64,000 bases of DNA, taken from assembly GCF_023276435.1 (NCBI RefSeq), contig NZ_JALLPO010000001.1, forward strand, positions 62,001 to 126,000. Direction: 5' to 3'. The stretch is from Sphaerisporangium perillae (GTDB lineage Bacteria > Actinomycetota > Actinomycetes > Streptosporangiales > Streptosporangiaceae). Below the pieces are notes generated by a model that was not told the DNA's origin, searched no databases, and worked only from the letters and a program-made list of their open reading frames with translations. Position 1 is the stretch's first letter, and each line of letters opens with the position of its first letter. Position numbers and translations under genes: made by a program. This document shows, one piece after another, positions 4,082-62,861 of this stretch.

Positions 4082-6617
<2,536 letters not shown>

Positions 6618-7292
6618 TCAGCCGTTGAAGCCGGCCAGCAGGCGCCCGGCGGCGATTTCGATGCGGCGCTGGATCTGCTCGTAGGTGCGCCGGCCGCGGA
6701 GCATCTCGAGCAGCTCCTGCACCCACACGCTCGCCAGCGAGCCCGCCAGGGCGAACTGCTCCTCCGAGGCCGACTCCGCCGTCAGGCCGTTGCCCGAGAC
6801 GCGCAGAAGCAGGACGGCAATGCGGTCGCCGAACGGGACCTGAACCTCCGCCATGATGAGGGAACGGATCAGCGCGTCGGCCAGCTCGGGCTCGCGCATC
6901 AGGCCGCGGGTCGCCCGCATGAGCACGTCGACCGCCCGGCCGTCCGGGGTCTCGGCGCTGGGCGGGCGCCGCTCGATGCTGCTCTCGAGAAGGTCGATCT
7001 CCTCCCCGACGACGGCCACCAGGAGGTCCATCTTGGAGGGGAAGTAGCGATAGAGCGTTCCCAGGGCCACCCCGGCACGCTCGGCGACGGTCCTCATCTG
7101 CATGGCCTCGACGCCGCCTCGTGATGCGAGCGCGGCCGCGGCCTGGACGATGCGCTTGCGCCGTTGGTGCTGGCTGCGCGTGCGGACCCCGGAGGAGACC
7201 CGGGCCGCCGGAGGCGGGTGCACCGCGTGGTCACCGCCGTCGGCGCCGATGACGGCGGGGACGGCTGCGGTGCCGGCATGCGAATGGCGCAT
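6618..7292 (-). CDS. kstR: KstR-like TetR-family repressor of steroid catabolism
   Basis: TetR regulator of 224 residues. The DNA-binding domain (about residues 43-95) reads RRKRIVQAAAALASRGGVEA then AGVALGTLYRYFPSKMDLLV, strikingly like mycobacterial KstR. The C-terminal ligand domain is more divergent (GSLASVWVQELLEMLRGRRT). There is an unusually long N-terminal arm of about 40 residues; the true start may be the internal GTG at 7223. A KstR-type core AACACGTT lies immediately before the ATG, and further boxes face fadA5 and the fadE28 operon, so autorepression and control of both flanking units is likely. KstR itself responds to 3-oxo-cholestenoyl-CoA-type thioesters. Ortholog status is inference. 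Confidence 0.8.
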   Translation of the reverse strand: MRHSHAGTAAVPAVIGADGGDHAVHPPPAARVSSGVRTRSQHQRRKRIVQAAAALASRGGVEAMQMRTVAERAGVALGTLYRYFPSKMDLLVAVVGEEIDLLESSIERRPPSAETPDGRAVDVLMRATRGLMREPELADALIRSLIMAEVQVPFGDRIAVLLLRVSGNGLTAESASEEQFALAGSLASVWVQELLEMLRGRRTYEQIQRRIEIAAGRLLAGFNG

Positions 7293-7306
7293 GAGAACAC
7301 GTTACC
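7293..7306. promoter_or_regulatory. KstR-type core site at the regulator's own start
   Basis: GAGAACACGTTACC contains the palindromic core AACACGTT (7296-7303), the centre of the classic KstR operator, but lacks the outer T and A. It abuts the ATG of the TetR gene, suggesting autoregulation. Confidence 0.45.
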
Positions 7307-7425
7307 GGATTAAGCGCAGGTAGGGCTTGTTACTCGTCAGTCACAAAGAACGCCTGTCTTGCATGACATTTGTGTTGCACGCAGATGTCCGGTGGGCGTC
7401 GCGTCAGATCACTCTGGACACAGAT

Positions 7426-7439
7426 TAGAATCTGTTCTA
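7426..7439. promoter_or_regulatory. KstR-type box before fadE28 operon
   Basis: TAGAATCTGTTCTA is an inverted repeat with perfect 5-base arms (TAGAA/TTCTA). It matches TNNAACNNGTTNNA except for one base (AAT for AAC). It lies 57 bases before the fadE28 start, in the place expected for a repressor of the igr-like operon. Confidence 0.6.
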
Positions 7440-7495
7440 GTTTGCGGCTGACCGGTCTCCACTGGGGCTCGGCCGGGCTCATGGAAGGCGCCGTG

Positions 7496-8626
7496 ATGGA
7501 TTTCGACCTTGACGAGACGCAGGCGGAGCTGAAGAAGCTGGCCGCGGGCCTGTTCGGCCGGGAGGCCGGCCACGACCGCCTCGTGGACCACGAGAAGAGC
7601 GGCCGCCCGTACGACGCCGCGCTCTGGGCGGCGGTGGCGCGAGCCGGGCTGATCGGGGTGTGCCTGCCGGAGGAGGCGGGCGGCGCCGGGCTCGGCGCGG
7701 TGGAGATGGCCGTGATCCTCCGGGAGGCGGGGGCGCGGGTGATCCCGGTCCCGCTCCAGGACGGCCTGGTGGCGGCGATGGTCATCGGGCGGTACGGCTC
7801 CGCCGGGCAGCGCGCGATGCTGGCCCGCCTGGGCGAGGGCGAGATCGTGCTGACCTCGGCGCCACTGGAACCCGGCCGCGACCTCGGCGCTCCACCGGGG
7901 ACGACGGCCCGGCGCACCGGCGAGGGCGGACCCGGCGGGGCGGAGACGGGTGACGCGGCCGGGGACGGCGGCGGATGGGTGCTCTCTGGAAGCAAGACCA
8001 TGGTGTCCTACGCCGCCGAGTCCGCGGCGATCGTGGTGCCCGCGTCGACCCCGCAGGGAGTCGGCCTCTTCCTGGTCAGGCCCGAGGCGGCGACGCTGCG
8101 GCCGGTGCCCGCCGCGACGGGAGAGCCCGTCTCGGCCCTGATCCTGGACGGCACCCCGGCCGAGCCGCTCGGCGAGCCGGACGGCCGGGCCTTCGCCACC
8201 CTGCGGCTGCTGACTCTGGTGGCCCTCACGGCGAGCGCCTCCGGCGTGCTGGCGGGGGCGCTGGAGCTGACCACCCAGTACATCAAGACCCGCAAGCAGT
8301 TCGACCGCGCGCTGGCGGAGTTCCAGGCGGTGACGATGCAGATCGCCGACGTCTACATCGCCGGGCGGGCGCTCGACGTGGCGGTCTGGTCGGGCGCCTG
8401 GCGCGTCGACCAGGGACTGGACGACGCCGAGCTGGACCTGGCCGTCGCCGCCCACACGGTCACCGACGCCGCGCTCGCCGCCCTGTACACCTGCCAGCAC
8501 CTGCACGGCGGCATCGGCCTGGACATCACCTACCCACTGCACCGCTACTTCGCCTGGGGCAAGCACCGGGCGCACCTCCTCGGTGGCGTGGAGGCCCGGC
8601 TCGACACGATGGGAGCGCTCGTCTGA
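7496..8626 (+). CDS. fadE28: Acyl-CoA dehydrogenase subunit FadE28 (ChsE1)
   Basis: One subunit of the heterotetrameric acyl-CoA dehydrogenase that desaturates the C-3 (propionyl-type) sterol side-chain CoA ester; its partner is FadE29. The 376-residue protein has the N-terminal helical domain (MDFDLDETQAELKKLAAGLF), a beta domain, and the C-terminal domain with TRKQFDRALAEFQAVTMQIA and LHGGIGLDITYPLHRYF, close to mycobacterial FadE28. It carries a Gly/Glu-rich insertion of about 30 residues near residues 130-160 that I do not recall from the mycobacterial protein. The ATG at 7496 has GGAAGG 7 bases upstream; the ATG at 7481 does not. First gene of the five-gene igr-like operon, overlapping fadE29 by one base (TGATG). 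Confidence 0.88.
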   Translation: MDFDLDETQAELKKLAAGLFGREAGHDRLVDHEKSGRPYDAALWAAVARAGLIGVCLPEEAGGAGLGAVEMAVILREAGARVIPVPLQDGLVAAMVIGRYGSAGQRAMLARLGEGEIVLTSAPLEPGRDLGAPPGTTARRTGEGGPGGAETGDAAGDGGGWVLSGSKTMVSYAAESAAIVVPASTPQGVGLFLVRPEAATLRPVPAATGEPVSALILDGTPAEPLGEPDGRAFATLRLLTLVALTASASGVLAGALELTTQYIKTRKQFDRALAEFQAVTMQIADVYIAGRALDVAVWSGAWRVDQGLDDAELDLAVAAHTVTDAALAALYTCQHLHGGIGLDITYPLHRYFAWGKHRAHLLGGVEARLDTMGALV

Positions 8627-9780
8627 TGCTCATCGACCTGACGCCCGAGCAGAAGCGGCTCCGCGACGAACTGCGCGAGTACTTCGCCACCTGCCTGACC
8701 GCCGAGGACCGGGGGAAGATCGCCCTGGACCCGTTCGGCGAGGCGTACATGGAGCACTGCCGCCGGCTCGGCCGGGACGGCAAGCTCGGCCTCGGCTGGC
8801 CGAAGGAGTACGGCGGGGGCGGCTACGGCCCGCTGGAGCAGCAGATCTTCGCCAACGAGATCGCCCGCGCCGAGGTGCCGTACCCACTGATCACGGTGCA
8901 GACCGTGGGGCCGACCCTGATGCAGTACGGCACCGACGAGCAGAAGGACTTCTTCCTGCCCCGCATCCTCGCCGGGGACTGCCACTTCGCCGTCGGGTAC
9001 AGCGAGCCGGGCGCCGGCACCGACCTGGCCTCGCTGCGCACGACGGCGATCAGGGACGGCGACCACTACGTCGTCAACGGGCAGAAGATCTTCACTTCGG
9101 GCGCGCACTACGCCCACTACGTCTGGATGGCCGTCCGCACCGACCCGGAGGCCAAGAAGCACCGCGGCATCTCGATGATGATCGTCGACACCCGGGATCC
9201 GGGGTTCTCCTGGACGTCGATCGTGACCATAGACGGGCGCCATCACACCAACTCGACGTACTACTCCGACATCAAGGTGCCGGTGAGCATGCTGGTCGGC
9301 GAGGAGGGCAAAGGCTGGGACATCATCGTCAGCCAGCTCAACCACGAGCGGGTCACGCTCGGCCCGGCCGGCAACATCGCCCGCTTGTACGACCGGTTCG
9401 CCGCCTGGGCGCGGGCTACCGGCGCGATCGAGGAGCCCGCGGTACGCCGGGCCCTCGGGCGCGTGTACGTCTACTTCCGCACCAACGAGCTGCTCAACTG
9501 GCAGGTCGCGGCGAACATGGACCTCGGCTGGCTCGGGGCGCCCGACGCCTCCGCCACCAAGGTCTACGGCTCGGAGCGCATGCAGGACGTCGGCCGGATC
9601 ATCGGGGAGACGCTGGCACGCTTCGGCGACCCGTCGGACCCGGAGACCGCCGCCTTCGTCGAGCAGCTCGACCGGTCGGTCAAGGGGGCGATCGTGCTGA
9701 CCTTCGGCGGCGGGGTCAACGAGGTCCAGCGCGAGCTCATCGGGATGCTCGGCCTGTCACTCCCGCGCCCGCCCCGATGA
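8626..9780 (+). CDS. fadE29: Acyl-CoA dehydrogenase subunit FadE29 (ChsE2)
   Basis: Partner subunit of the sterol side-chain acyl-CoA dehydrogenase. The 384-residue sequence tracks mycobacterial FadE29 nearly end to end: MLIDLTPEQKRLRDELREYF, RDGKLGLGWPKEYGGGGYGP, FAVGYSEPGAGTDLASLRTT, NGQKIFTSGAHYAHYVWMAV and TFGGGVNEVQRELIG. Glu241 in SQLNHERVTLGP sits at the position I recall as the catalytic base of FadE29. It shares one base with the fadE28 stop, the usual design for obligate partners. Electrons would pass to electron-transfer flavoprotein; etfB is at the far end of this window. Confidence 0.92.
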   Translation: MLIDLTPEQKRLRDELREYFATCLTAEDRGKIALDPFGEAYMEHCRRLGRDGKLGLGWPKEYGGGGYGPLEQQIFANEIARAEVPYPLITVQTVGPTLMQYGTDEQKDFFLPRILAGDCHFAVGYSEPGAGTDLASLRTTAIRDGDHYVVNGQKIFTSGAHYAHYVWMAVRTDPEAKKHRGISMMIVDTRDPGFSWTSIVTIDGRHHTNSTYYSDIKVPVSMLVGEEGKGWDIIVSQLNHERVTLGPAGNIARLYDRFAAWARATGAIEEPAVRRALGRVYVYFRTNELLNWQVAANMDLGWLGAPDASATKVYGSERMQDVGRIIGETLARFGDPSDPETAAFVEQLDRSVKGAIVLTFGGGVNEVQRELIGMLGLSLPRPPR

Positions 9781-9836
9781 CGCGGCGGCAGCGCCGCCGA
9801 GCACGGGCCGCATCGGGCACGGACTGAGGAGAGAGA

Positions 9837-10817
9837 TTGTCGACGACGGCTGAACCGGGCGTCGCGGAGCCGGCCGCGACGGGCGTCCACGAGCGGTTCA
9901 CCGCCCTGGCCGAACGGCAGATCGAGCTGGGCGAGGTGCGCGGCGCCGCCGCCGCCGATCCGGTGAACCTGCCGATGATCCGGCACTGGACCGCCGCGAT
10001 GGGGGACGCCAACCCGGTGTACACCGACGCGGCGTTCGCGGGCGCGAGCGTGCACGGGGAGATCGTCGCACCGCCCGCGATGGCGCAGGTGTGGACGATG
10101 CCCGGGCTGGGCGGCGGCAAGGGCGGGACGAGCCCGGTGGACGAGCTGATGGTGGCACTCGACGAGGACGGCTTCACCGGAGTGGTCGCCACCAACTGCG
10201 AGCAGACCTATCACCGGTACGCGCGGCTGGGGGAGCGGCTGGTCCCCGCCACGCGGATGACCGGCCTCGCCGGGCCGAAGACCACGGCGCTCGGAGTGGG
10301 ATATTTCGTGACCTGGCTGGTCACCTGGTACTCCGAGGACGAACCAGTCGCGGAAATGATGTTCCGGGTATTGAAGTTTCGTCCCCGGGAGGAGAAAGCC
10401 GCGCCCGAGGAGCGCACGCGATACCCCCTCAGGCCGGCCGTCAACAGGGACACGGCGTTCTTCTGGGAAGGTGTTCAGGAAGGCGAACTACGGATCCAGA
10501 AATGCGGTGACTGTGGTGAGCTGCGGCACCCGCCCGGACCGGTCTGCCCCTCGTGCCGGTCGGCCAACCGGGTGTACGCCGTGGCGAGCGGGCTCGGCGA
10601 GGTCTACAGCTTCGTCGTGCACCACAACCCTCCGGTACCGGGGATCGAGACGCCTTTCGTGGTGGCCGTAATTGCATTACCCGAAGGAATACGCGTTGTC
10701 GGAAATGTCGTGGAATGTTCACCGGAAAAGGTGGGTATCGGTATGCCGGTACGCGTGGAATACCGAGAGATGGACGACGAGCTGACCTTGCCGATGTGGG
10801 TACCCCGGGAGTCATGA
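9837..10817 (+). CDS. chsH2: ChsH2: MaoC-like hydratase fused to DUF35 OB-fold domain
   Basis: Two-domain protein of 326 residues. Residues about 20-185 form a MaoC-like hot-dog domain (VNLPMIRHWTAAMGDANPVY). Residues about 205-326 form a DUF35 unit with a zinc ribbon (CGDCGEL...CPSCRS) and an OB fold. With ChsH1 the MaoC half hydrates the side-chain enoyl-CoA; the DUF35 half binds Ltp2 and is needed for its aldolase activity. The start is a TTG at 9837 preceded by GAGGAGAGAG; no better start exists nearby. The stop overlaps the chsH1 start (ATGA), as expected for subunits of one complex. Confidence 0.9.
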   Translation: MSTTAEPGVAEPAATGVHERFTALAERQIELGEVRGAAAADPVNLPMIRHWTAAMGDANPVYTDAAFAGASVHGEIVAPPAMAQVWTMPGLGGGKGGTSPVDELMVALDEDGFTGVVATNCEQTYHRYARLGERLVPATRMTGLAGPKTTALGVGYFVTWLVTWYSEDEPVAEMMFRVLKFRPREEKAAPEERTRYPLRPAVNRDTAFFWEGVQEGELRIQKCGDCGELRHPPGPVCPSCRSANRVYAVASGLGEVYSFVVHHNPPVPGIETPFVVAVIALPEGIRVVGNVVECSPEKVGIGMPVRVEYREMDDELTLPMWVPRES

Positions 10818-48545: not shown

Positions 48546-50618
48546 GTGGCTGATTCTGCAAGGCGTGATTGGTCACGTCCGCCAGGGCGCGGTGTGCTGG
48601 GTCCGGCGTGGTGGGCGGCGGTGGTCGCACGTTCCAGCGCTTGCTCTAGTGACGGCTCGGCTGCCCGAGACATCGATCCGCTGGTCGATCCGCTGGTCGA
48701 GCCGGGGGTTGATCCGCTCAGCGACGCGCATGACGCCCAAGCCCGTGACGTCCCTCCGCGTCCTCCTGTCGGTCTCAAGCATGCGAGTGCGGGTGCGGGT
48801 GCTGATGGCGCTGCTACCGGGGCTGGTGCGGGCGGCCGGGCGTCGTGGGTGTTGGTGGGACGGGTGCGGGAGGTCGCCGAGGAGTTGGCGGTGGCTGGGG
48901 TGCCGGAGTCGCCGGCGGTGTGCATGGCCGAGGTGGAGGATCTTTCGTTCGCACGTGATCGGCTGACCTCGGCGATCGCGGCGCGGGTGGGGCGGGTGCA
49001 TGGGTCGGGTGAGGCCAGGAGCCGGGGGCATGCCTCGACCAAGACGTGGTTGCGGTCGGAGTGCGGGATGAGCATGGCCGGGGCGGGGCGTGTGGTCGGT
49101 TTGGCGGTGGAGCTGGCGCGTCTGCCGCTGGTGCGCGAGCGGTTCGCGGCGGGGACCCTGACCGAGGGGTTGGTGTCGGCGATCTGTGGTGCCGTCGCGC
49201 CGTTGACCGATGATCAGGCCCAGCTGTCCGAGCCGATCCTGGTCCGTCTGGCCGATCAGGCGAGCCCGGTGGAGGTGGCCCGGGCGGGTCGTTACCTGCG
49301 CGAGGTGCTCTCCCCTGACGAGGCGGCGCAGGAGGCCGACGCCGACTACGCGGCGCGGTTCCTCATCGTGCGCCCGACCGATTCGGGTGGGGTGGAGGGG
49401 GAGTTTCGGTTGCCGCGTGAGGCCGCCGGCCGGTTGCGGGCGCTGCTGGACGCCTACGCCAAGCCTCGGGCCGAAGGCGATGATCGCCCGCTGCGGGTGC
49501 GAAACGCTGATGCGTTGATCGCGCTTTTGGAGAAGAAGATCACCACTGAGCTGCTGGTCCTGGTCAACGCCGGTTCCCTCCCCGACGACCCTCCCGAGCC
49601 GACGTGCGCGGAGCACGGCACTCCCACAGCCCCCGATGCCGTCGCCTCGACCGAACCGACTCCAACATCCATGAAAGTCGTCAGGCCCTCTCGTTTCTCC
49701 CGGGGAGATGCGGGGTGTGTGGAAGGTGGCGGGGCTGTCGTGCCGCCTGCCGAGGCAGCGGGTCTCGTGGGTGCTGTCGGGTCTTCTCGGGTCTTGGTGG
49801 GTGGTGCCGCCGGGTGTGTGGGAGGTGGCGAGCCTGTCGTACCGCCTGTGGGCGCTGGGGGTTCCGTGGAGGCTGTGGGGTCTTCTCGGTTCTCGAGTGG
49901 TGATGCCGCCGGACGTGTGGAAGGTGGCGGGCTCGTCGTGCCGCCTGTCGAGGCTGCGGGTTCCGTGGAAGCTGTCGGGTCTTTTCGGTTCTCGGGGGGT
50001 GATGTCGGGCGTGTGGGAGGTGGCGGGGCTGTCGTGCCGCCTGTCGAGGCAGCGGGATCCGTGGACGCTGTCAGGTCACTCCGGTTCTCGCAGGGTGTGG
50101 GAGGTGGCGGGTCTGTCGGGTCGGCTTCTGGGGGTGCGCAGGCTGCACGAGTCGGCGGGGCTGTTGGTGATGGGTGCGGGAGGTGCGGGCATAGGGCGGA
50201 TCGGTGGTTGCCTGGTCTCTTGGCGGCTACCGGGCAGTTGTTGCCGGTCGGGGATGTCCAGCGGCTGGCCCGCACTTCCACCTTGGTGCGGATCGTGATG
50301 GACGCCCAGGGGCAGGTGCTGGACATGGGTCGCAAGGTACGGCTCGCCACTCCTGCCCAGCGGCGGTCGGTGGTCGCGCGATATGCCACCTGCTGGGTGG
50401 ACGGTTGCCCGCTCCCCGCCACCATGTGCCAGCTCGACCACGCCGACGGCTGGGCAGAAGGTGGACCGACCGACCTGGCCAACCTCGGACCGGCCTGCCA
50501 GTTCCACAACCGCGACCGTTACCGCCACCCCGACCGCTACCAACGCCGTCGTGTCGGTAAAGACCGCTGGAGCTACACCTATCTCGGCCGTACCCCCCGC
50601 CCACACCAGCGGACATGA
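48546..50618 (+). CDS. DUF222-HNH endonuclease-type protein with a repeat-expanded middle
   Basis: 690 residues from a GTG at 48546 with GGAGG before it. Residues about 100-330 are the DUF222 helical region (MAEVEDLSFARDRLTSAIAA, STKTWLRSECGMSMAGAGRV). Residues about 381-510 are four tandem copies of a 32-33-residue Gly/Val-rich unit. Residues about 615-655 are the HNH domain (CWVDGCPLPATMCQLDHADG, GPTDLANLGPACQFHNRD). DUF222-HNH proteins are multicopy in actinobacteria and are likely homing-type or mobile nucleases. The unit is inserted between the two standard domains. The stop codon is inside a tandem repeat. Confidence 0.88.
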   Translation: MADSARRDWSRPPGRGVLGPAWWAAVVARSSACSSDGSAARDIDPLVDPLVEPGVDPLSDAHDAQARDVPPRPPVGLKHASAGAGADGAATGAGAGGRASWVLVGRVREVAEELAVAGVPESPAVCMAEVEDLSFARDRLTSAIAARVGRVHGSGEARSRGHASTKTWLRSECGMSMAGAGRVVGLAVELARLPLVRERFAAGTLTEGLVSAICGAVAPLTDDQAQLSEPILVRLADQASPVEVARAGRYLREVLSPDEAAQEADADYAARFLIVRPTDSGGVEGEFRLPREAAGRLRALLDAYAKPRAEGDDRPLRVRNADALIALLEKKITTELLVLVNAGSLPDDPPEPTCAEHGTPTAPDAVASTEPTPTSMKVVRPSRFSRGDAGCVEGGGAVVPPAEAAGLVGAVGSSRVLVGGAAGCVGGGEPVVPPVGAGGSVEAVGSSRFSSGDAAGRVEGGGLVVPPVEAAGSVEAVGSFRFSGGDVGRVGGGGAVVPPVEAAGSVDAVRSLRFSQGVGGGGSVGSASGGAQAARVGGAVGDGCGRCGHRADRWLPGLLAATGQLLPVGDVQRLARTSTLVRIVMDAQGQVLDMGRKVRLATPAQRRSVVARYATCWVDGCPLPATMCQLDHADGWAEGGPTDLANLGPACQFHNRDRYRHPDRYQRRRVGKDRWSYTYLGRTPRPHQRT
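49686..50075. repeat. Four ~97-bp coding repeats in the HNH gene
   Basis: Four copies of a 96-99-base unit encode variants of SSRFSSGDAAGRVEGGG then VVPPVEAAGSVEAVG. Copies 1, 3 and 4 are the closest; a fifth partial copy starts at 50076 (SLRFSQG). Confidence 0.85.
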
Positions 50619-50879: not shown

Positions 50880-51620
50880 TCAGGCGAGCTTGTCCAGGGT
50901 GGTGATGTCGTCGCTGGTCAGGTGCAGGTGGGCAGCAGCCAGGTTCTCCTCCAGGTGGGCGAGGGAGGAAGTGCCAGGGATGGCGAGGGTGACCGGTGAG
51001 CGGCGGAGGAGCCAGGCGAGTGCCACTTGTGCTCGGGTGGCGCCGTACCGGTCGGCGATCTCATCGAGCGTTGTGAGCTGTTCGACGGTCGGGGCCATCC
51101 CGGGCGGGGCCTGCGAGAGGTCCAGGGCGGGGCGTAGCATCCCGGCGGCGAGGGGGAAATAGGGACGAACGCGATACCGGCGTCCTCGCACACGGACAGG
51201 ACATCCGCGCTGGATCGGTCGAAGATGTGGAAGCGGTTCTGCACCGCCACCACGGGGGCGATCTCCAGGGCCTCGGCGAGCCGGCCTGTCGTCACGCCGC
51301 TGAGCCCGAGGTGGTGGATGAGCCCGCGCCGCCGCAGCTCGGCGAGCGTGCCGAACGACTCGGCGAAGGGCGTGTCGCCGGGGAACATGAGCCCGTCCCC
51401 GCCCGCCCGCAGGTACACCAGGTCGAGGCGGTCCTTGCCCAGCCGGACGAGGTTCTCTTCGACCTGTTCGCGGAGCTGCGCCGGTTCGCCGGCGGCGTTC
51501 CAGCTCTGCCACTCGTCTCGGACCACGCCCACCTTGGTGGCGATGACCAGGTCGCCGGGATAGGGGAGTGGCCTCTCGGGCCCGTCGCGGGCCGGCTGCC
51601 TCGTCCGTGAGCCGATCTCG
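50880..51620 (-). pseudogene. Aldo/keto reductase, frameshifted and 5'-truncated
   Basis: Remains of an NADP-dependent aldo/keto reductase. One frame gives YPGDLVIATKVGVVRDEWQ, QVEENLVRLGKDRLDLVYL, LIHHLGLSGVTTGRLAEALE and VVAVQNRFHIFDR; another gives YFPLAAGMLRPALDL, YGATRAQVALAWLLRRSPVT and LAIPGTSSLAHLEENLAAAH. The frames meet near 51161-51164, where a run of C appears one base short. The N-terminal quarter, with the catalytic Asp and Tyr (DxADxYG region), is missing before the divergent gene at 51735. Both defects argue for a dead gene. Confidence 0.82.
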
Positions 51621-51734
51621 CATCCTGTGAAGAGCCTCTGGGCGGCGCAGTCAGGCTTCCCTGTCAGGAAGCGTGATGGAACAGGAATCTTCGCGATTCG
51701 GGTAGATCATGGTTTGCCGTTAAAGTGACCGGCC

Positions 51735-52271
51735 ATGGCGCGGTTCGTGATGCGTGTCCTGGCACCCCTGCGGGTTCGGCGCGCCGTACTCGGCCGGTTC
51801 GATGCCCGTTATGTCACGCGGGCCGATCACCGGCAGGACGTCCGGGATGCCCTCTGGGAGGTCCAGGCGGTCAAGCGTGAGATCGAGGCCCTGCGGCGCG
51901 AGGTCGAGCAGCTCCGCAAGGAGATCAGGCGCGGGACTTCCGCGTCCCCTGGCGCGGCCGCCGCCACGAAGGCCGAGGAGGCGCTTCGGCTCGCCACGGA
52001 GACCGCGTCGGCGGTGGATCATCTGCTCCAGGAGGAGATCCGGCTCTGGCAGGCGATCGACGGCATCCGCGAGGACGGCGCCGCTCCGATCGGTGAAGGC
52101 GCCGCTCCGGTGGATCAAGGCGCCGCTCCGGTCGATCAAGGCGTTGCTCCGGCTGCCGGAGATGCGGCTCCCTCTGACGCCGCTCCCCGTGGTGCCGCTC
52201 CCCGTGGTGCCGCTCCGAAGCGTGGCGGCAGAGCCGGGAGGGCCGCTCCCGGCGATGAGGCGGCTTCGTGA
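51735..52271 (+). CDS. Coiled-coil hypothetical protein, first gene of the 51.7-56.7 kb operon
   Basis: 178 residues. The basic N-terminus (MARFVMRVLAPLRVRRAVLG) could contact membrane or nucleic acid. A heptad-rich coiled coil follows (about residues 38-65: LWEVQAVKREIEALRREVEQ, LRKEI). The C-terminal 60 residues are low-complexity repeats (GAAPVDQGAAPVDQGV). No family recognised. Its stop overlaps the start of the PP-loop gene (GTGA), which ties the two together; a scaffold or partner role is a guess. Confidence 0.72.
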   Translation: MARFVMRVLAPLRVRRAVLGRFDARYVTRADHRQDVRDALWEVQAVKREIEALRREVEQLRKEIRRGTSASPGAAAATKAEEALRLATETASAVDHLLQEEIRLWQAIDGIREDGAAPIGEGAAPVDQGAAPVDQGVAPAAGDAAPSDAAPRGAAPRGAAPKRGGRAGRAAPGDEAAS

Positions 52272-53677
52272 GGGCGAGCTGGGCATTCGAGGAGGGCCTC
52301 TGGCGGCTGCGCCTCCGGCTGGACGCCGGTGAGGAACTTGCCGGAACCGTCACCGATGGGCAGCGGGTCGAACTGGCCACTGACACGTGCCACGTGCGTC
52401 TGCCGCGTAGCACAGGCCCTACCGCTACCGGCCGCACCGCTACCGGCTCTGCCGCTATCGGCCGCACAGGAACCGGCTCTGCCGCTATCGGCCGCACCGC
52501 TACCGGCTCTGCCGCTATCGGCCGCACAGGAACCGGCTCTGCCGCTATCGGCCGCACCGCTACCGGCTCTGCCGTTAACGGCTCCGCTGCCGGTCTCGAC
52601 TCGGTTCATCCCGATCTGCTGGCGCTCGCGGCCTGGACCGTCGCCGCGCCGTGGGCGGTGGGCCGCGTCGTCTTCGACCGGCCGATCTCTCCTGACCTGG
52701 CCGAGGCGTTCCACAGCGGCTGGGGGATCGAGGCGGGGCCCGTCGGTGGGACGCCCCGGTCGGGCACGCGGCTGGCGATCTCCTACAGCGGCGGCGCCGA
52801 TTCGGCCGCCGTGGCCGCGATGCTGCCGGACGCGCCGCTGATCCACTTCCGCAGGGTGAGCCATCCCCGGATCCCGAACCGGTGGACGCACTACAGGTCG
52901 GACGTGCTGGCGGCGCTCGCGGAGAAGACCGGCAGGGACGTGACGCCCGTCGAGTCGGATCTTGAGTTCCTGCTGCGGTCCCCGCGCCCGGGGTACCCCG
53001 AGCATCACGCCGTCATGGTGGGCGCCATCCTGCTCGCCGATGCCATGGACCTGGGGGGCGTGGCCCTGGGCTACGAGATCGGCTCGCGGTGGCTGGGCGG
53101 TGGCCGGTACGTCCACCGGTTCACGCCGGACAACCCGATGTGGTCCGGGCACGGGCCGTGGGGCCGGCTCTTCGCCGCCGCGGGACTGCCGCTGGTGCTG
53201 CCGGTAGGCGGGATCAGCGAGGCGATGACCATGCGGCTCGCGCTCGGGTCCGAGCTGCGCGACCAGGTACGCTGGTGCTTGCGCGGCGACGGCAGCGGGC
53301 CGTGTGGCCGGTGCGGGAAATGCCTGTACAAGGAGCTCATCCAGGCTGCCGTCGAGCGGCGTCCGATGCGTACGACGATCACCGCCGACCGTCCGGTCGC
53401 CCGCAAGTGGCAGCAGCCCCCGCCCTACGGGGGCCAGGAGATGATCGAGTACGGCTGCGCCCACGTCCCGGGCATCGAGGACACCCCCTTCGCCCGTGCG
53501 GCCGAGTACCTCAAGGCCACGCCGGAGTCCACGCGGTGGCTGGAGCGGTGCTACCCTCCCGCCGTCGAGGAGATCCCCGCGCGGTGGCGGGGCACGATCG
53601 AGACGATCATGGCCCGCGAGTTCGGCTTCATGGAGGCCGGCGACGTCAAGCGGGTAGAGAGCTGGGGAGGGCGATGA
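52268..53677 (+). CDS. PP-loop ATPase-like protein (QueC/adenylating-type fold)
   Basis: 469 residues from a GTG at 52268. Residues about 56-105 are a repeat (SAAIGRTATG/SAAIGRTGTG). The core carries the PP-loop SYSGGADSAAVAAML (SGGADS at 174-179), as in enzymes that adenylate a carboxyl or carbonyl group (QueC, asparagine synthase, tRNA thiolases). A Cys cluster CGRCGKCLYKEL near residue 345 resembles the zinc site of QueC. Downstream are conserved-looking PPPYGGQEMIEYGCAHVPGI and ESTRWLERCYPPAVEEIP. I think it belongs to the DUF6395-like group, but the substrate is unknown. It overlaps both neighbours by four bases. Confidence 0.8.
   Translation: MRASWAFEEGLWRLRLRLDAGEELAGTVTDGQRVELATDTCHVRLPRSTGPTATGRTATGSAAIGRTGTGSAAIGRTATGSAAIGRTGTGSAAIGRTATGSAVNGSAAGLDSVHPDLLALAAWTVAAPWAVGRVVFDRPISPDLAEAFHSGWGIEAGPVGGTPRSGTRLAISYSGGADSAAVAAMLPDAPLIHFRRVSHPRIPNRWTHYRSDVLAALAEKTGRDVTPVESDLEFLLRSPRPGYPEHHAVMVGAILLADAMDLGGVALGYEIGSRWLGGGRYVHRFTPDNPMWSGHGPWGRLFAAAGLPLVLPVGGISEAMTMRLALGSELRDQVRWCLRGDGSGPCGRCGKCLYKELIQAAVERRPMRTTITADRPVARKWQQPPPYGGQEMIEYGCAHVPGIEDTPFARAAEYLKATPESTRWLERCYPPAVEEIPARWRGTIETIMAREFGFMEAGDVKRVESWGGR
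52438..52577. repeat. 60-bp perfect tandem duplication (30-bp subunits)
   Basis: Bases 52438-52497 and 52498-52557 are identical, followed by a partial third copy. Each 60-base unit is two 30-base subunits that differ at their first few bases (CGCTACCGGC or AGGAACCGGC). They encode RTATGSAAIG and RTGTGSAAIG decapeptides in the PP-loop protein. Perfect identity points to recent slippage. Confidence 0.95.
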
Positions 53678-54516
53678 AGGTCTATGTGTCGGTCGACATG
53701 GAGGGTGTGACCGGGCTCACCGACCCCGAGGAGATGCACACCGGAGGCCGCGGCTACGAGCGCGGTTGCGAGCTGATGACGGCGGACGCCAACGCGGTGA
53801 TCGCGGGGGCCTTCGAGGCCGGCGCCTCGACGGTGACCGTGAACGACGCCCACGGCTCGACCAAGAACCTCCGCGTCGACCTGCTCGACCCGAGGGCCTC
53901 GCTGATCCGGGGACCGGGCAAGCCGATGCGCATGGCGCAGGGGCTGACCGCCGACTTCCAGGCCGCCTGCTTCGCCGGCTACCACGCTCGCGCCGGGGTC
54001 CAGCACGGTGTGCTCAACCACACGTGGATGGGCAAGGAGATCCAGAACGTCTACCTCAACGGCGAGGTCTGCGGCGAGACGCGGCTGGTGGCCGGGGTCG
54101 CCGGGTTCCTCGGAGTGCCGGTGGCGCTGGTCACCGGTGACGAGGCGGTGTGCGAGGAGGCGCGGGAGCTCCTCGGCGACGTGGAGACCGTCGCGGTCAA
54201 GAAGGGCATCGACAGGTTCGCCGCCGAGCTGCTGCCGCCCAGCGTCGCCCAGGCGCTGATCAGGGAGGCCGCGGCCCGGGCGATCAACCGGCTGAGCGAC
54301 TTCCGGCCGTACGTGATCGCCCCGCCGTTCACGCTGGGGATCGAGTGGAACTCCACGGCCATCGCCGCGGGTTGCTCCCTCATCCCGGGCGTCCGGCAGG
54401 CGGGCCCGCGGCACATCGAGTTCACCACCGAGGACTTCAGGGACATCATGGCGCTGCTCGGCCTCTTCGCGATGATCGCGGGTCAGGTGGCGTGCAGCAG
54501 CGGCGTGTACGGCTGA
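53674..54516 (+). CDS. M55-family D-aminopeptidase (DppA-like)
   Basis: 280-residue zinc peptidase of family M55. The metal ligands align with Bacillus DppA: Asp8 and Glu10 in SVDMEG, His60 in VNDAHGS and His104 in GYHARAG; Glu131 in YLNGEVCGE is the probable last ligand, and His116 in NHTWMG the probable catalytic residue. DppA releases D-alanine from D-Ala-D-Ala or short D-peptides. No signal peptide, so it is cytoplasmic. The ATG at 53674 overlaps the PP-loop gene stop. It suggests that the operon handles D-amino-acid peptides, perhaps from cell wall turnover. Confidence 0.92.
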   Translation: MKVYVSVDMEGVTGLTDPEEMHTGGRGYERGCELMTADANAVIAGAFEAGASTVTVNDAHGSTKNLRVDLLDPRASLIRGPGKPMRMAQGLTADFQAACFAGYHARAGVQHGVLNHTWMGKEIQNVYLNGEVCGETRLVAGVAGFLGVPVALVTGDEAVCEEARELLGDVETVAVKKGIDRFAAELLPPSVAQALIREAAARAINRLSDFRPYVIAPPFTLGIEWNSTAIAAGCSLIPGVRQAGPRHIEFTTEDFRDIMALLGLFAMIAGQVACSSGVYG

Positions 54517-54520
54517 GCCT

Positions 54521-56182
54521 GTGCGAAACGATGGCTTACCGGGGCAAGATGGCTTACCGGGGCAAAGGGATGGCCTGACGCGGCGGTCGCTGCTGGTCGG
54601 CATCGGCGCGGCCGGTGGCGCGGGCGCGATGTACGCCGCGATGGGGGCGCTGGGACTGGCCCCGGCGAAGGGCACGCCGCCCGTGCCGGTCGTCGGCGGG
54701 ACGGCCGCCCCCTCGCCGTACGTCCCGCCGCAGCGTTCGGACTTCGCCCTGCGCGGCGGGCGCCCCGCGTCGGTGCTCGTGCTCGGCGCGGGCGTGGCCG
54801 GCCTGGCGTGCGCGTACGAGCTGGGCAAGGCGGGGTACGACTGCACGGTGCTGGAGGCCCGCGACCGGGTGGGCGGGCGCAGCCTCACCTTGCGCGGGGG
54901 CGACACCGTGACCGAGCTGCCCGTCCAGGGCGCGGCCGGCTCGGCGTCCCCGGGGGACACGCAGCGGGTGACCTTCGGGGAGGGCACGTACTTCAACGCG
55001 GGTCCCGCCCGCATCGCCCAGTGGATGGTGACGCTCGACTACTGCCGCGAGCTGGGCGTCCCGCTGGAGGTGTTCGTCAACTCAAACTCGGCCGCCTACG
55101 TGCTCACGGCCGGGATGAAGGCCCCCGTGCGGGTCCGGACGGCACGCGCCGACGCCTACGGGTACATCTCCGAGCTGCTGGCCAAGGCGGCCGACGCCGG
55201 GGCGCTGGACGCCCGCCTGACCGGCGCCGACAAGGAGCGACTGCTGGACTTCCTGTCCGCCTTCGGGGAGATCGGCCCGTCCCACGACTACACCGGGGGC
55301 GAGCGGCGCGGCTACCGGGTGAACCCGGGCATCGGGCAGGGGTCCGAGCTCGGCGCCCCTCCCTCGCTCACCGAGGTCCTGAGCCAGGGCCTCGGCCGGG
55401 TGCTGACCATGGACGCGGGCTACGAGCAGGCGATGCCGATGTTCCAGCCGGTGGGCGGGATGGACGCCATCGTCCACGCGCTGGCGCGGCAGGTGGGCGC
55501 CGATCGGATCAGGACCGGCACGCGCGTCACGAAGATCACGAACACCCCGGACGGGGTCGAGGTGGCGGTCGAGGGCGGCGCGCCGCTGAGGGCCGAGTAC
55601 TGCGTCGCGGCCCTTCCTCCGCATCTGCTCGCCCGCATCCCGGGCAATCTCGGCGCCGACGTCCAGGCCGCCCTGGCCACTCCGGTCCCGCTGGCGGCGG
55701 GCAAGCTCGGCCTTGAGTACGGCCGGCGCTGGTGGGAGATCGAGGACCGCGTGTACGGCGGCGCCACGGAGACCGACCTGGACGTCGGCCACATCTGGTA
55801 CCCCTCCCACGGCTTCCACGGCCCGCGCGGCCTGGTCGTGGGCTACTACAACACCGGCGAGGACGCCGATTCCTACAGCGAGATGACCCACGCGCGGCGC
55901 CTGCGCCGGGCCATCGCGCAGGGGCGCAGGGTCCACGGCGCGAAGTACGGCGCCGATCTGCTGGCGAGCGCCTCGGTCTCCTGGCGGCGGCAGCCGCACA
56001 TCGAGGGCGCTTGGGTGCGCTGGCCGTCGATGGGCGGGTTGAGGCTGCTCCAGCGCCCGGCCGGGCGGGTCTACTTCGCGGGGGATTGGCTCACCCATCT
56101 GATCGCCTGGCAGGCGGGGGCCTTCGAGTCGGCCCGTAAGGTGGTCACCGAACTCCACCATCGCGTGCTGAAGGAGGCATGA
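54521..56182 (+). CDS. Tat-exported FAD-dependent amine oxidase
   Basis: 553-residue flavin amine oxidase (monoamine/L-amino-acid oxidase superfamily). A twin-arginine signal (LTRRSLLVGIGAAGGAGAMY) lies about 20 residues in. The FAD-binding Rossmann motif is VLVLGAGVAGLACAYELGKA with the acidic end of strand 2 in VLEARDRVGGRS; the C-terminal FAD segment is GRVYFAGDWLTHLIAWQAGA. The GTG at 54521 is the only reasonable start; the N-terminal residues DGLPGQDGLPGQ come from an 18-base tandem repeat. It starts 4 bases after the M55 stop. Substrate unknown; an amine or amino acid released by its neighbours is plausible. Confidence 0.88.
   Translation: MRNDGLPGQDGLPGQRDGLTRRSLLVGIGAAGGAGAMYAAMGALGLAPAKGTPPVPVVGGTAAPSPYVPPQRSDFALRGGRPASVLVLGAGVAGLACAYELGKAGYDCTVLEARDRVGGRSLTLRGGDTVTELPVQGAAGSASPGDTQRVTFGEGTYFNAGPARIAQWMVTLDYCRELGVPLEVFVNSNSAAYVLTAGMKAPVRVRTARADAYGYISELLAKAADAGALDARLTGADKERLLDFLSAFGEIGPSHDYTGGERRGYRVNPGIGQGSELGAPPSLTEVLSQGLGRVLTMDAGYEQAMPMFQPVGGMDAIVHALARQVGADRIRTGTRVTKITNTPDGVEVAVEGGAPLRAEYCVAALPPHLLARIPGNLGADVQAALATPVPLAAGKLGLEYGRRWWEIEDRVYGGATETDLDVGHIWYPSHGFHGPRGLVVGYYNTGEDADSYSEMTHARRLRRAIAQGRRVHGAKYGADLLASASVSWRRQPHIEGAWVRWPSMGGLRLLQRPAGRVYFAGDWLTHLIAWQAGAFESARKVVTELHHRVLKEA
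54530..54565. repeat. 18-bp tandem duplication at the 5' end of the amine oxidase gene
   Basis: GATGGCTTACCGGGGCAA occurs twice in a row and adds a duplicated DGLPGQ hexapeptide before the Tat signal. Confidence 0.92.
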
Positions 56183-56185
56183 CCC

Positions 56186-56710
56186 ATGAAGCTGGGCACG
56201 CTCGAGTGGGTGCCCGCCGGGGAACGGCCGGACCTGCTCGCCGACCCGGTCGCCCGCGCGGTCCAGACGATGACCGACGAGGTGGCGGTGGCGCCGATCG
56301 ACCCCGCGCTGGCCGACACCGCCGCCTTCTGCGAGCGGTACGCCGTGGCGCTGGACGATTCGGCCAACTGCGTGATCGTGGCGGCCAAGCGGGGCGGTGA
56401 GACGCGGTACGCGGCGGTCATGGTGCTCGCGACGATGCGCGCCGATGTCAACGGGGTGATCCGCCGCCACCTGGACGCGCGCAAGGCCTCCTTCGCCCCG
56501 CAGCCGGACGCCGTCGAGCTGTCCGGCATGGAGTTCGGCGGCATCACTCCTCTCGGGCTCCCCGAGGACTGGCCCGTGCTGGTGGACGCCGAGGTCGCGC
56601 GGCGGCCGTACGTGGTCATCGGCAGCGGAATCCGGGGCTCCAAGCTGGCGCTCGCGGGCGAGGCCCTCACCCGTCTCAAGACCGCTGAAGTGGTCTCTCT
56701 CGCCCAGTGA
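56186..56710 (+). CDS. YbaK/EbsC-family aminoacyl-tRNA deacylase-like protein
   Basis: 174-residue stand-alone editing-domain protein of the YbaK/ProX type, which hydrolyses mischarged aminoacyl-tRNA. Landmarks are DDSANCVIVAAKRGGETRYA, RHLDARKASFAPQPDAVELS with the conserved Lys, and FGGITPLGLPEDWPVLVDAE followed by VVIGSGIRGSKLALAGEAL. The ATG at 56186 follows AAGGAGG at 8 bases and lies 3 bases after the amine oxidase stop. It ends the five-gene unit. In this context it may protect tRNA charging from an unusual amino acid made or freed by the operon; that is inference. Confidence 0.87.
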   Translation: MKLGTLEWVPAGERPDLLADPVARAVQTMTDEVAVAPIDPALADTAAFCERYAVALDDSANCVIVAAKRGGETRYAAVMVLATMRADVNGVIRRHLDARKASFAPQPDAVELSGMEFGGITPLGLPEDWPVLVDAEVARRPYVVIGSGIRGSKLALAGEALTRLKTAEVVSLAQ

Positions 56711-57120: not shown

Positions 57121-59489
<2,369 letters not shown>

Positions 59490-59493
<4 letters not shown>

Positions 59494-61586
59494 CGGGGGA
59501 AACGGTGCCGGAGACGCTGGACAGACTCGGTCCTTACCGGCTGTTGCGCCGGCTCGGCGAGGGCGGGATGGGCGTGGTCCATCTCGGCCTCGACGGGGAG
59601 GGCAGGGAGGTCGCCGTCAAGGTCCTCCACCCGCATGTCGCGGCCGACCTGAAGGCGCGTGACCGGCTCACGCGTGAGGTCGAGACGATGCGCCGGGTGC
59701 GCAGCGCGCGCGTCGCCGAGGTGCTCGACGCCGAGCTCACCGCGGCCACGCCGTACATCGTCACGCGGTTCGCCCCCGGGCGCACGCTGGAGGAGACCGT
59801 CCTGACCGACGGCCCGCTGTCCGACCGCGAGGTCGTACGGCTGGCGCGGGGCCTGTCGGAGGCCCTGATCGCCATCCACGCCGCCGACGTCATCCACCGC
59901 GACTTCAAGCCGGCCAACGTCATGCTGGTCAACGGCGACCCGCTGGTCATCGACTTCGGCATCGCGCACCTGGTGAACGCGACCCGGCTCACCCAGACCG
60001 GCATGTTCGTCGGCACGCCCGGCTACCTGGCGCCCGAGATCATCAGGGACGACGAGATCACTCAGGCGGCCGACGTGCACGCCCTGGCCGCCACGGTGTT
60101 CTTCGGGGCGACGGGCAAGCCGCCGTTCGGGTCGGGCTCGTTCGAGTCCGTCTGCTACAACATCATGGAGGGCCGGGCCAACCTCGACCAGGCGCCGCCG
60201 TGGCTGCGCGGCTGGCTGCGCGCCGCCTTCGCGGTGAACGCCGGAGCCCGGCCGAACGCCCAGGGCCTGCTGGCGATGGCCAGGTCCCTCGATCCCCGCG
60301 TGACCGCCTTCCAGGAGACCGCGGCGCAGCCCGGGCACACCCGCAGGCTCGACAGCGCTCAGGCCAACGGGCGGATGCCCGACGGCACCCGCGTGCTCGG
60401 CGGGGCGGCGCCCGATCACCCCGCGAGCGGGTCCGCCCCCGACGCCACCCATGTGCTCAACGGCGGCGACCGCACGCCGGTGCTCAACGGCTCGGCGCAG
60501 GAGGAGCTTCCGCCGACCAAGCGCACCAAGCCGGCCTCCGAGGACAGCTACTCCGACCTGCTGCCGCCCGTGCGGTACGCCGAGCCCGAGCGCAGGCGCA
60601 CCCGTGCCGACAGGCCGCCGCCCGGCCCGCCGGCCGCGTTCGCGCCGCCCCCGCCCGCCCCGGGCTACTCCCCGGCGCCGTACGCTCCTCCGGGGCAGTA
60701 CGCTCCGGTGCCCTACCCCGACCAGCGGGTGGCCGGGCCGCCCCCGCCGGCCTATCCCGGGCCCACCCGCGGCACCGTGCCTCCGCCGCCCACGGCGGGC
60801 CAGTACCCGCCCGCCCAGGGACACGGCCCCTACGCTCCCGGCCAGGGCGGCGCGTACCCGCCCGACCGGGCACGCGGGCCGCACGCGCCCGAGCAGGAGC
60901 GCGGGCCCGAGCCCGACCGTCCCCGTTACCGCGCGGGGCACCCGGTGCTCGCCGCCCTGCTGCTGGCCGTGGCGGTCGCGAGCGCGCGCCTGCTTCCCGT
61001 GCTGATCAGCGTTCTGATGGTCGTCGTGGTGCTCTGCCTGCGCGTCGGGGAGCATCTCTGGAGCGATCTGGCGCAGCGCCGCTCGATCCGGGGCAGCAGC
61101 GCGAGCGACCCGCTGCTTGCCGTGCTCGGCACGCCGTGGGCGCTGATCAGAGCCACCCTCATGACGTTGGTGGTCACGCCCTTGGCCGTGATGTTCGCCA
61201 TGTGCGTCTGGGGCGGGCTGCACTTCCTTGGGGGAATGACCACCGACTCCGCCGCCGCCTACGGGGCGTCGGCGTTCGTCCTGGGCCTGTTCCTGCTGCC
61301 GGGCGGCGGCGCGCCCCGCAAGGCGGTGGCGCGCACCCTGACGGCGGTGATCCGCAGTCCGGGCGCCGGGTTGATCCTGACGATCATCGTCGGCACGTTG
61401 GCGTTCTTCACGGTGGTGACCGCCATGTCCGCCGTCCCGTCGTGGATCCCCTGGCAGGCGCCGTCCAAGGCGATCGACGCCCTGGGGGAGCAGGCCAGGA
61501 GCAGCGCGACGGGGCTCATCGGCGGTCTGGTCGAAGATCTGATGAGAAACCTCGGAGTGGGCTTCCTGGCCTTCTGGGGCAGATGA
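59490..61586 (+). CDS. Membrane-bound Ser/Thr protein kinase 2
   Basis: 698 residues, close paralogue of kinase 1 (shared TRLTQTGMF(I/V)GTPGYLAPEI segment). The kinase domain has Lys44 in VAVKVL, HRDFKPAN with Asp138 and DFGIA with Asp155. The linker (about 275-485) is rich in Pro/Tyr/Gly (PPAPGYSPAPYAPPGQYAPV). The C-terminus again has four or five helices (HPVLAALLLAVAVASARLLP, LLPVLISVLMVVVVLCLRVG, and later ones). The shared segment DPLLAVLGTPWALIRA parallels VLRVLGRPGALLKS of kinase 1, so the membrane domains are related. The ATG at 59490 overlaps the kinase 1 stop. Confidence 0.93.
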
Positions 61587-61631
61587 TCTCGGTAAGGCCG
61601 TCGACGGGCCGGGCGGGCCGGGAGGAGGGGC

Positions 61632-62861
61632 ATGAGCGTTCCGGCGGCGGATCAGCTCGGGCCGTACCGCCTGCTGTCACGGCTGGGTGCGGGCGGCTTC
61701 GGCGAGGTGCACCTGGCGCTCGACCCCGAAGGCCACACGGTCGCGATCAAGGTGCTCCATCCGCACGTGGCGGCGGACGAGGCGGCGCTGGCCCGGCTCG
61801 CCCGCGAGGTCGACACGATGCGCAGGGTGCGCGGGCCGCATGTCGCCGAGGTGCTCGACGCCTCGCTCACCGGTCCCCGTCCCTACCTCGTCACCAGGTA
61901 CGTCCAGGGCCGCTCCCTCGGAACCGTCCTCGCGGCGGGCACGGCGCTGCGCGGTGAGGAGCTCGTACGCCTTGCGCGCGGGCTGGCCGAGGCGCTGGCG
62001 ACCATCCACGCGGCGGGAGTGGTGCACCGCGACCTGAAACCGGCGAACGTCATCCTGGCCGACGGCGAACCGCACGTCATCGACTTCGGCATCGCGTGCG
62101 CGCTGGACTCCGCGTCGGTGACCGCGTCGGGCGCCGTGCTCGGCACTCCTGGATACCTCGCGCCGGAGGTGCTGGAGGGCGGGGAGGCGGGCCCCGCCGC
62201 CGACGTCTTCGCCTGGGGCGCGACGATGGCCTACGCCGCCTCGGGACGCCAGCCGTACGGGTCGGGACCGGCGCCCGCGGTCGCCTACCGCGTCGTCCAT
62301 CACGATCCCGACCTGGCCGAGGTGCCGTCCTGGCTGCTCCCGCTGATAGAGCAGTGCCTGCGGCACGACCCGGCGGCCAGGCCGACGACGGCCGAGCTCT
62401 GCGCCAGGCTGGGGGCGGCCGCTCCGCCGCCGCCGCCGCTCGCGGCCGAGCGGCGGCGCGCCACGGACTCCGTGGAGCCGCCGACGCAGGTGTGGCGGCG
62501 GCCCGGGCGGCGGGAGGCGGCCGGCGCGGTCGACGACGCGCGGGCCCGCCATCGTGACAAGGTGCGCCGGCGCTGGGTGGTCGGTTCGGGGGTCGTCGCC
62601 GGCTTGGTGGCCGCCGCCGTCCGGCAGTATGTTCCGGAGATGTCGCTGCTGGTCCTCGCGGCCTACGGCGTCGGCGTGCTGGTGGACGCGGGCATGGGCC
62701 TGGCCGCCAGGGCACGGTCTCGCGTGGTGTTCGACCTGGTCAGCGGGGCGGGTGCCGTCGGTTTGTACGCGGCGTTGATCGCGGTTTTCAGTCCCTTCAC
62801 GCTGCTGCTGGCCCTCGCCACCGTGATGGTCGTCCTGGTGATGGTCGCCTTCGCCGGCTGA
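61632..62861 (+). CDS. Membrane-bound Ser/Thr protein kinase 3 (short)
   Basis: 409 residues. The kinase domain (about 8-270) has GAGGFGEVHLALD, Lys40 in VAIKVL, HRDLKPAN with Asp134 and DFGIA with Asp151; the activation segment reads ASGAVLGTPGYLAPEVLEGG. The linker is short. The C-terminus has three to four helices (VVGSGVVAGLVAAAVRQYVP, LLVLAAYGVGVLVDAGMGLA, VGLYAALIAVFSPFTLLLAL) of a compact type different from kinases 1 and 2. The ATG at 61632 has GGAGG upstream; it lies 45 bases after kinase 2 and probably shares its transcript. Confidence 0.93.
   Translation: MSVPAADQLGPYRLLSRLGAGGFGEVHLALDPEGHTVAIKVLHPHVAADEAALARLAREVDTMRRVRGPHVAEVLDASLTGPRPYLVTRYVQGRSLGTVLAAGTALRGEELVRLARGLAEALATIHAAGVVHRDLKPANVILADGEPHVIDFGIACALDSASVTASGAVLGTPGYLAPEVLEGGEAGPAADVFAWGATMAYAASGRQPYGSGPAPAVAYRVVHHDPDLAEVPSWLLPLIEQCLRHDPAARPTTAELCARLGAAAPPPPPLAAERRRATDSVEPPTQVWRRPGRREAAGAVDDARARHRDKVRRRWVVGSGVVAGLVAAAVRQYVPEMSLLVLAAYGVGVLVDAGMGLAARARSRVVFDLVSGAGAVGLYAALIAVFSPFTLLLALATVMVVLVMVAFAG

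Follow-up and report, generated by a model that had tools for sequence, protein, structure and literature searches.

Genes for a DUF6395 PP-loop protein and a coiled-coil protein form a conserved pair in Streptosporangiaceae, with a possible role in surface-glycan biosynthesis

The 64,000-nucleotide stretch of Sphaerisporangium perillae analysed here (contig NZ_JALLPO010000001.1, positions 62,001 to 126,000 of the forward strand; hereafter the window) carries at 51735-56710 five neighbouring genes, for a coiled-coil protein, a PP-loop protein of family DUF6395, an M55 peptidase, an amine oxidase and a YbaK-like protein, which a first-pass annotation of the same DNA had regarded as one functional unit. 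That observation was right, but the unit was misdrawn, and the interest lies in the DUF6395 and coiled-coil pair. These two genes are a bonded pair, since they are stably present together while the M55 and oxidase genes, which are more loosely attached, come and go separately. The YbaK-like gene is best read as part of an older chromosomal neighbourhood and not as a member of the cassette. We tentatively propose, with a probability of roughly 35%, a four-gene cassette (coiled coil, DUF6395, M55 and oxidase) whose core would be a QueC-type amide-forming enzyme acting with its partner on a surface-glycan precursor. The features of the cluster are the following.

51735..52271, + strand: coiled-coil protein gene, 178 amino acids (aa), with a basic N-terminus, the RFDARYVTRADH motif, the coiled coil itself, another conserved helical stretch and a tail of low complexity
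52268..53677, + strand: DUF6395 gene (PF19932), 469 aa, GTG start, 4-base overlap with the coiled-coil gene
52415..52582, + strand: tandem repeat (30/60-bp unit) within the DUF6395 gene; it encodes a low-complexity insert at about residues 50-107
53674..54516, + strand: M55 peptidase gene of DppA type (PF04951), 280 aa, 4-base overlap with the DUF6395 gene
54521..56182, + strand: flavin adenine dinucleotide (FAD)-dependent L-amino acid oxidase-like gene (PF01593, PDB 2jae), 553 aa, GTG start, 4-base gap after the M55 gene
56186..56710, + strand: YbaK/INS-superfamily trans-editing-like gene (PF04073), 174 aa, 3-base gap after the oxidase gene

The layout given by the first-pass annotation, five same-strand open reading frames overlapping or at most 5 bases apart, was borne out, with overlaps of 4 bases and gaps of 3-4, and its family assignments (coiled coil, PP-loop, M55, amine oxidase, tRNA editing) agree with Pfam. 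The PP-loop protein matches DUF6395 with E 6e-69 (residues 298-467 covered), and the other enzymes match Peptidase_M55 (E 3e-96), Amino_oxidase (E 2e-41) and tRNA_edit (E 1e-19); the coiled-coil protein gave weak coiled-coil matches only and no Pfam family above the cut-off. From their spacing alone, the five genes are probably co-transcribed. A consensus scan of the cluster for promoters and terminators found 0 and 0 (shuffled sequences gave 0.2 and 1.0).

Conservation of the cluster and the genes that belong together

DUF6395 was searched in a phylum sample of 396 genomes and in a family sample of 250. It is rare across the phylum (2/396, the source genome being one of the two), and in the family it was found in 97/250 genomes and 22 of the 68 genera. 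Neighbourhoods were compared at all 98 further DUF6395 places, which lie in 96 genomes of the family sample besides the source genome (L038-L076, L113-L171), and in 75 of them all five genes are colinear, so that the arrangement is not due to chance; the neighbourhood survey that the first-pass annotation had called for thus finds the gene set conserved well beyond one species. Among the 98 loci the M55 gene is present in 86, the oxidase gene in 85 and the YbaK-like gene in 90, and the coiled-coil gene stands beside DUF6395 in 95, the two being separated in only 3. Some of these absences are contig ends (e.g., L161), and L055, L064 and L065 do not belong to the block, being second or different loci. 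M55 is absent from 12 of the 98 loci and the oxidase from 13, both being missing in L039, L055, L064 and L065. The upstream flanks kept in many loci are glycogen phosphorylase-type, debranching-type, GT4 and enoyl-CoA hydratase genes (the last in 80/98), and the downstream ones are protein kinase genes followed by EtfB.

Genomes of the family that have no DUF6395 show which genes can stand without it. Twenty of these 153 genomes were searched for M55 and YbaK, and 12 stretches from them were read (L100-L111). An ortholog of YbaK with at least 55% identity was present in 17/20 (as two pieces in one genome), and M55 of the window type, with at least 61% identity, in 4/20. In four of the stretches (L105, L106, L109, L110) the hydratase gene ends 20-35 bp before YbaK, as measured from alignment ends, and a kinase gene and EtfB follow. 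At the other places where YbaK lies apart from M55, the hydratase is beside it in the opposite orientation (L111) or none was seen (L104, L108). The order hydratase-M55-YbaK was found in L101 and L102, and M55 genes with no other cluster gene in L103 and L107. Another locus, L100, holds a 40-residue remnant of the coiled coil together with M55, oxidase and YbaK, but no DUF6395. In a sample of the class, YbaK was detected at E <= 1e-30 in 13/40 genomes, 10 of them outside the family, and no other cluster gene lies within about 1.5 kb of those ten YbaK genes or of one further gene inside the family. YbaK was therefore rejected as part of the unit, being widespread without DUF6395, placed after the hydratase in four loci and apart from the cluster elsewhere.

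The distribution of the genes was also mapped on a quick YbaK tree (175 columns, 110 rows), on which 2 changes account for the presence of DUF6395 (shuffled mean 19.5); we read these as probably one gain and one loss, the count alone being no proof. Among the 89 rows with DUF6395, M55 needs 5 changes, the oxidase 6 and the coiled coil 1. The cassette may accordingly have been placed between the enoyl-CoA hydratase and YbaK-like genes in one branch of the family and inherited vertically since. Weighing against this history, the tree is weak in 53 of its 107 inner branches and the outgroup does not fall on one side of a branch.

The DUF6395 protein compared with QueC, QatC and sugar-amidating enzymes

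Judged by its sequence, DUF6395 is proposed to be an ATP-pyrophosphatase of the QueC superfamily. The protein consists of an N-terminal beta-rich extension, a PP-loop core, zinc cysteines and a C-terminal helical extension; in the window its PP-loop reads SGGADS (residues 174-179) and its QueC-type cysteines are C337-x8-C346-x2-C349-x2-C352, the zinc motif C-x8-CxxCxxC being the one reported for QueC in PMC13329287. Among 62 DUF6395 rows, drawn from sets with some overlap, SGGxDS is found in 57, with close variants in 5, and the four cysteines are found in all, with a first spacing of 7-9 (8 in the window protein); in QueC controls this spacing is 7 in 15/20 and 9 in 5/20. By hhalign, DUF6395 aligned with 20 QueC sequences at E 1.3e-4 (a single-profile comparison) and a probability of 54, colinear through the PP-loop and the cysteines. 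The repeat insert of the window protein, about 58 residues long, is absent from aligned relatives and was predicted by AlphaFold2 with a predicted local distance difference test score (pLDDT) below 50, and mean pLDDT was 80 for the window protein and 87 for an 85%-identical ortholog without the insert; tandem repeats were also seen at 52077-52216. The only Foldseek match of the ortholog model at E <= 0.001 was 9y01_B of the QatB-QatC structure (E 1.6e-5, probability 1.00, 425 columns), a chain that, from its length, we infer to be QatC.

Several results weigh against this placement. The 9y01_B match has a template modelling (TM) score of 0.34 and a root-mean-square deviation of 10.2 Å, so the placement of the domains is not matched; the window model, with its repeat insert, gave no Foldseek match at E <= 0.001, and its best PP-loop matches are MnmA/TrmU (E 0.02-0.07, probability 0.93-0.95). 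Of 19 DUF6395 members, one touches the Pfam QueC model, at E 0.23 and below the cut-off, and PADLOC gave no QatC match, with weak matches to other models (E 0.0067 and 0.034, two of the 19 members each). A sequence search of DUF6395 against solved structures gave no lead in either direction, returning chance or PP-loop-fragment matches only (E 0.012-3.2). The possibility of a known defence system was rejected for want of a relevant PADLOC match.

Despite the features shared with QueC (PF06508), DUF6395 differs from it in having two extra regions and in lacking its substrate motifs: YxQxHxxE, VPxRN and YPDC are each found in 0/62 DUF6395 rows, as against 18, 20 and 19 of 20 QueC controls. The 9.3-Mb source genome gave no match to QueC or to QueD (PF01242), for which controls were positive in 12/14 and 9/14. 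With the motifs missing and neither protein matched in the genome, the substrate is unlikely to be cell-made 7-carboxy-7-deazaguanine, and deazaguanylation of a protein or nucleoside was rejected on the same grounds.

PMC13279940 and PMC13329287 describe QatC as having a QueC core extended at both termini and a small helical partner, its reaction being not yet resolved. DUF6395 resembles it in length (about 410-430 aa) and in the small helical partner gene next to it, and may resemble it in the order of N-terminal extension, PP-loop Rossmann core, zinc cysteines and C-terminal helices. They differ in their cysteines, which in QatC are a C-x19-CGxC variant; in addition, no qatA or qatD was found among the cassette proteins scanned, and DUF6395 is passed on within one clade as part of a chromosomal block. 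The qatABCD partner has an N-terminal Met-Gly motif according to PMC13279940, and the coiled coil lacks the N-terminal glycine motif used by QatB and the CBASS substrate: none of 39 aligned coiled-coil sequences, with starts as picked, has Gly at position 2.

Enzymes that amidate sugars offer a different comparison. WbpG-type proteins are PP-loop enzymes with a zinc tetracysteine that amidate sugars in surface-glycan biosynthesis (PMC10607449), and the N-acetyl sugar amidotransferases WbpG and PseA have in common with DUF6395 the PP-loop and the tetracysteine, the surface-glycan (O-antigen) role being that of WbpG/PseA. Their cysteines, however, are CxxC-x6-CxC and not QueC-type, there was no match to NCBIfam TIGR03573, and their family has no match in the source genome; membership of DUF6395 was rejected with an hhalign probability of 3.1 against four such enzymes. 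WbpS/WbqG, described in PMC7468200 as AsnB-related, are a precedent for uronic-acid amidation in surface glycans; Pfam scans gave DUF6395 no asparagine-synthase match. Text searches of the literature found no paper on DUF6395, on the five-gene set or on QueC with polysaccharide tied to it, and one on M55 gave no lead either; this is in line with the earlier remark that no described pathway with this combination is known, and the core enzyme belongs to a family of unknown function.

Glycan genes, proposed reaction and alternative explanations

It is the divergent DUF6395 genes that suggest surface glycans. Outside the family cassette, fourteen loci were read (L055, L064, L065, L077, L078, L096-L099, L196-L200). 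Among them are 6 of the 12 genomes of one match list (those omitted being four of one genus and two below the family cut-off) and all four non-family loci of another, and glycosyltransferase genes, by Pfam or annotation, lie near DUF6395 in 11. A UDP-sugar dehydrogenase gene occurs in two of these loci, one of them L196, where DUF6395 is beside it and GT2; epimerase and ABC transporter genes occur in several. The distant actinobacterium of L077 has four DUF6395 genes in tandem (5066-10690), which are 38-41% identical to the window protein where the two match. An inverted coiled-coil gene, whose product is 32% identical to that of the window, goes with them, and the group lies in a surface-polysaccharide region next to genes for GT2, epimerase and ABC-2 transporter proteins. 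In the loci of Euryarchaeota and one deltaproteobacterium (L096-L099), the genes near DUF6395 are for an epimerase, for GT4 or GT2 and for an ABC transporter, not all of them in every locus, and on a Priestia plasmid (L078) DUF6395 is found with galU, GT-D and pyruvyl transferase genes; a plasmid search returned two records, one with annotation, and gave no further lead. In eight genomes in which all GT2 positions were recorded, 1-6% of the sequence lies within 10 kb of a GT2 gene, and 6/8 DUF6395 loci are that close, including the partial DUF6395 of G859 at about 9.6 kb. The corresponding P of about 4e-8 presumes independence, which does not hold as three of the genomes share one genus; if two same-genus genomes, the two misses, are dropped, the proximity is 6/6. 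As a separate observation, proteins adjacent to DUF6395 in the archaeal and deltaproteobacterial loci (L096 8897-10261, L097 11195-12598, L098 3121-4461, L099 5316-6635) have in common an N-terminal segment bearing an LRxSxSFRxG-like motif, and at the E-values used Pfam gave them no match.

Other loci tell against a glycan role. No glycosyltransferase was seen by reading at L197 and L198, nor at L055; no GT2 lies on the DUF6395 contigs of G906 and G888 or on the cassette-copy contig of G539, and the nearest glycan genes at the cassette loci are of glycogen type (phosphorylase, debranching, GT4), possibly neighbours of long standing.

In the reaction that we propose, the PP-loop of DUF6395 would bind ATP and a carboxylate would be activated as an acyl-adenylate, from which an amine or ammonia would displace AMP to give an amide. 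The substrate would most likely be a carboxylate carried by a nucleotide- or lipid-linked sugar or by a surface-glycan precursor of another kind, or else an amino acid that is donated to such a precursor; amide formation there is suggested by analogy, because PP-loop and AsnB-type enzymes (WbpG-type, WbpS/WbqG) already amidate sugars. The coiled-coil protein, which we propose as a dedicated partner of DUF6395, could be a scaffold or a substrate presenter, as QatB is to QatC. M55 and the putatively exported oxidase would be accessory amino-acid enzymes that travel with the pair and not obligatory steps, with YbaK as a neighbour; these two enzymes may serve in the trimming or recycling of peptides or amino acids, their link to the DUF6395 reaction being conjectural.

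Modification of a protein in the manner of QatB is the main mechanistic rival to glycan amidation. DUF6395 would then join a small carboxylate to the coiled coil, or the reverse, and the coiled coil so modified would be the active agent, perhaps at the membrane. Among solved structures, the ortholog model is matched best by the chain taken to be QatC, N- and C-terminal extensions included, and the small helical partner gene is maintained beside DUF6395 in the family and again with the distant four-copy cluster, all of which would suit such a reaction, as would a QatC reaction that PMC13279940 presents as not yet resolved. We consider it unlikely, given a coiled coil with no N-terminal glycine and cassette proteins among which neither qatA nor qatD was found. 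In the four loci outside the cassette that the partner search covered, the coiled coil was found in 2/4, a point that counts against the main proposal as well.

Another explanation is that there is no functional unit, and that separate housekeeping or scavenging genes are held together by the conserved chromosome order of one clade. It would account for the conservation of the flanks (phosphorylase, debranching enzyme, GT4, hydratase, kinases, EtfB) in many loci, for the few changes in DUF6395 presence on the tree and for the independent variation of M55 and oxidase, and we consider it rather unlikely; what speaks against it is the near constant adjacency of coiled coil and DUF6395 and a 4-base overlap of the DUF6395 and M55 genes in 18 of the 32 relatives measured (starts picked by script; overlaps rough). 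The same overlap would favour the opposite extreme, the first-pass proposal of a single pathway of five genes for making, salvaging or detoxifying some unusual amino acid or peptide, perhaps a D-configured one, in which the YbaK-like deacylase could give self-protection, as would the tight spacing and colinearity of the genes, the intact M55 metal site and the abutment of YbaK and oxidase at gaps of -4 to 3 bases, seen in 11 of the 29 relatives with both measured (script-picked starts; rough gaps), in which YbaK may be co-transcribed with the oxidase. Yet the single pathway is highly improbable: YbaK is found in most of the relatives searched that have no DUF6395 and away from cluster genes elsewhere, its protective role being likewise unsupported; M55 and oxidase vary separately, and L100 keeps both with no DUF6395; the oxidase resembles an L-amino acid oxidase; M55, oxidase and YbaK are all absent from L055, L064, L065 and L077; and divergent DUF6395 genes occur near glycosyltransferase genes. 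Close gene spacing need not mean one pathway, the last gene of the window cluster being widespread without the others.

The QueC scaffold has lately been shown to act in protein modification for phage defence in Cap9, and this has been proposed for QatC. A QueC relative with its own partner gene among glycan genes of bacteria and archaea would broaden the roles of this scaffold, and would give a route to the true ligand of QueC-type enzymes such as QatC. Taken to its full extent, glycan amidation would make DUF6395 and the coiled coil a third lineage of QueC-type ligase with partner, beside Cap9/CD-NTase and QatC/QatB, dedicated to cell-surface glycans, or to a protein serving as their anchor or template, across bacteria and archaea, using no 7-deazaguanine and in Streptosporangiaceae fed or trimmed by M55 and the exported oxidase; in this complete form the idea is quite unlikely.

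Accessory enzymes and flanking genes

The other three cluster genes are members or relatives of DppA, L-amino acid oxidase and the YbaK/INS family. The M55 protein matches PDB 1hi9 (E 3e-50) and conserves D8, E10, H60, H104, H116 and E135 in 33 sequences, the positions of the metal ligands and catalytic histidine of DppA; the residues of the DppA-type metal site that the first-pass annotation had called intact are so. The protein falls below the NCBIfam DppA equivalog cut-off (219.5 of 430 bits), and no signal sequence was seen in it. The source genome contains a second M55 gene, 41% identical (G000:C42:115759-116544, L112), and a third, partial match (G000:C77).

The best relative of the oxidase is the L-amino acid oxidase of Rhodococcus opacus, PDB 2jae (E 3e-129 over residues 83-553). 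The FAD motif is present, and the Arg of the ATRIPQ segment of 2jae, which binds the substrate carboxylate, is conserved as ARIAQ; D-amino acid oxidase chemistry was rejected in view of this nearest relative. A twin-arginine motif was read by eye in the N-terminal extension. The earlier description was of a Tat-exported FAD amine oxidase, whose type is now specified as L-amino acid oxidase. A perfect 18-bp duplication (54530-54565) lies just inside the gene, ahead of that motif. The protein also matches a PADLOC model described as a desaturase (E 8e-30), which was taken as generic. In one relative (L070), about 4.6 kb of other genes separate M55 from the oxidase.

The YbaK-like protein scores 45 of the 153 bits of the NCBIfam YbaK equivalog cut-off, and the segment expected to hold the catalytic lysine reads SANC, with a conserved N61.

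At the usual hydratase site of the window no hydratase gene was seen; the genes found there are one for a DUF222 protein and one, broken, for an aldo/keto reductase. The former (48546-50618, + strand) contains a 99-bp tandem repeat at 49689-50097, and the latter (50880-51623, - strand) is split over two frames (profile 76-193 and 188-289), being either broken or affected by a sequencing error. Downstream, at 57121-62861, lie three consecutive serine/threonine kinase-like genes, the first and third confirmed by Pfam, which most relatives keep behind the cassette; EtfB comes next.

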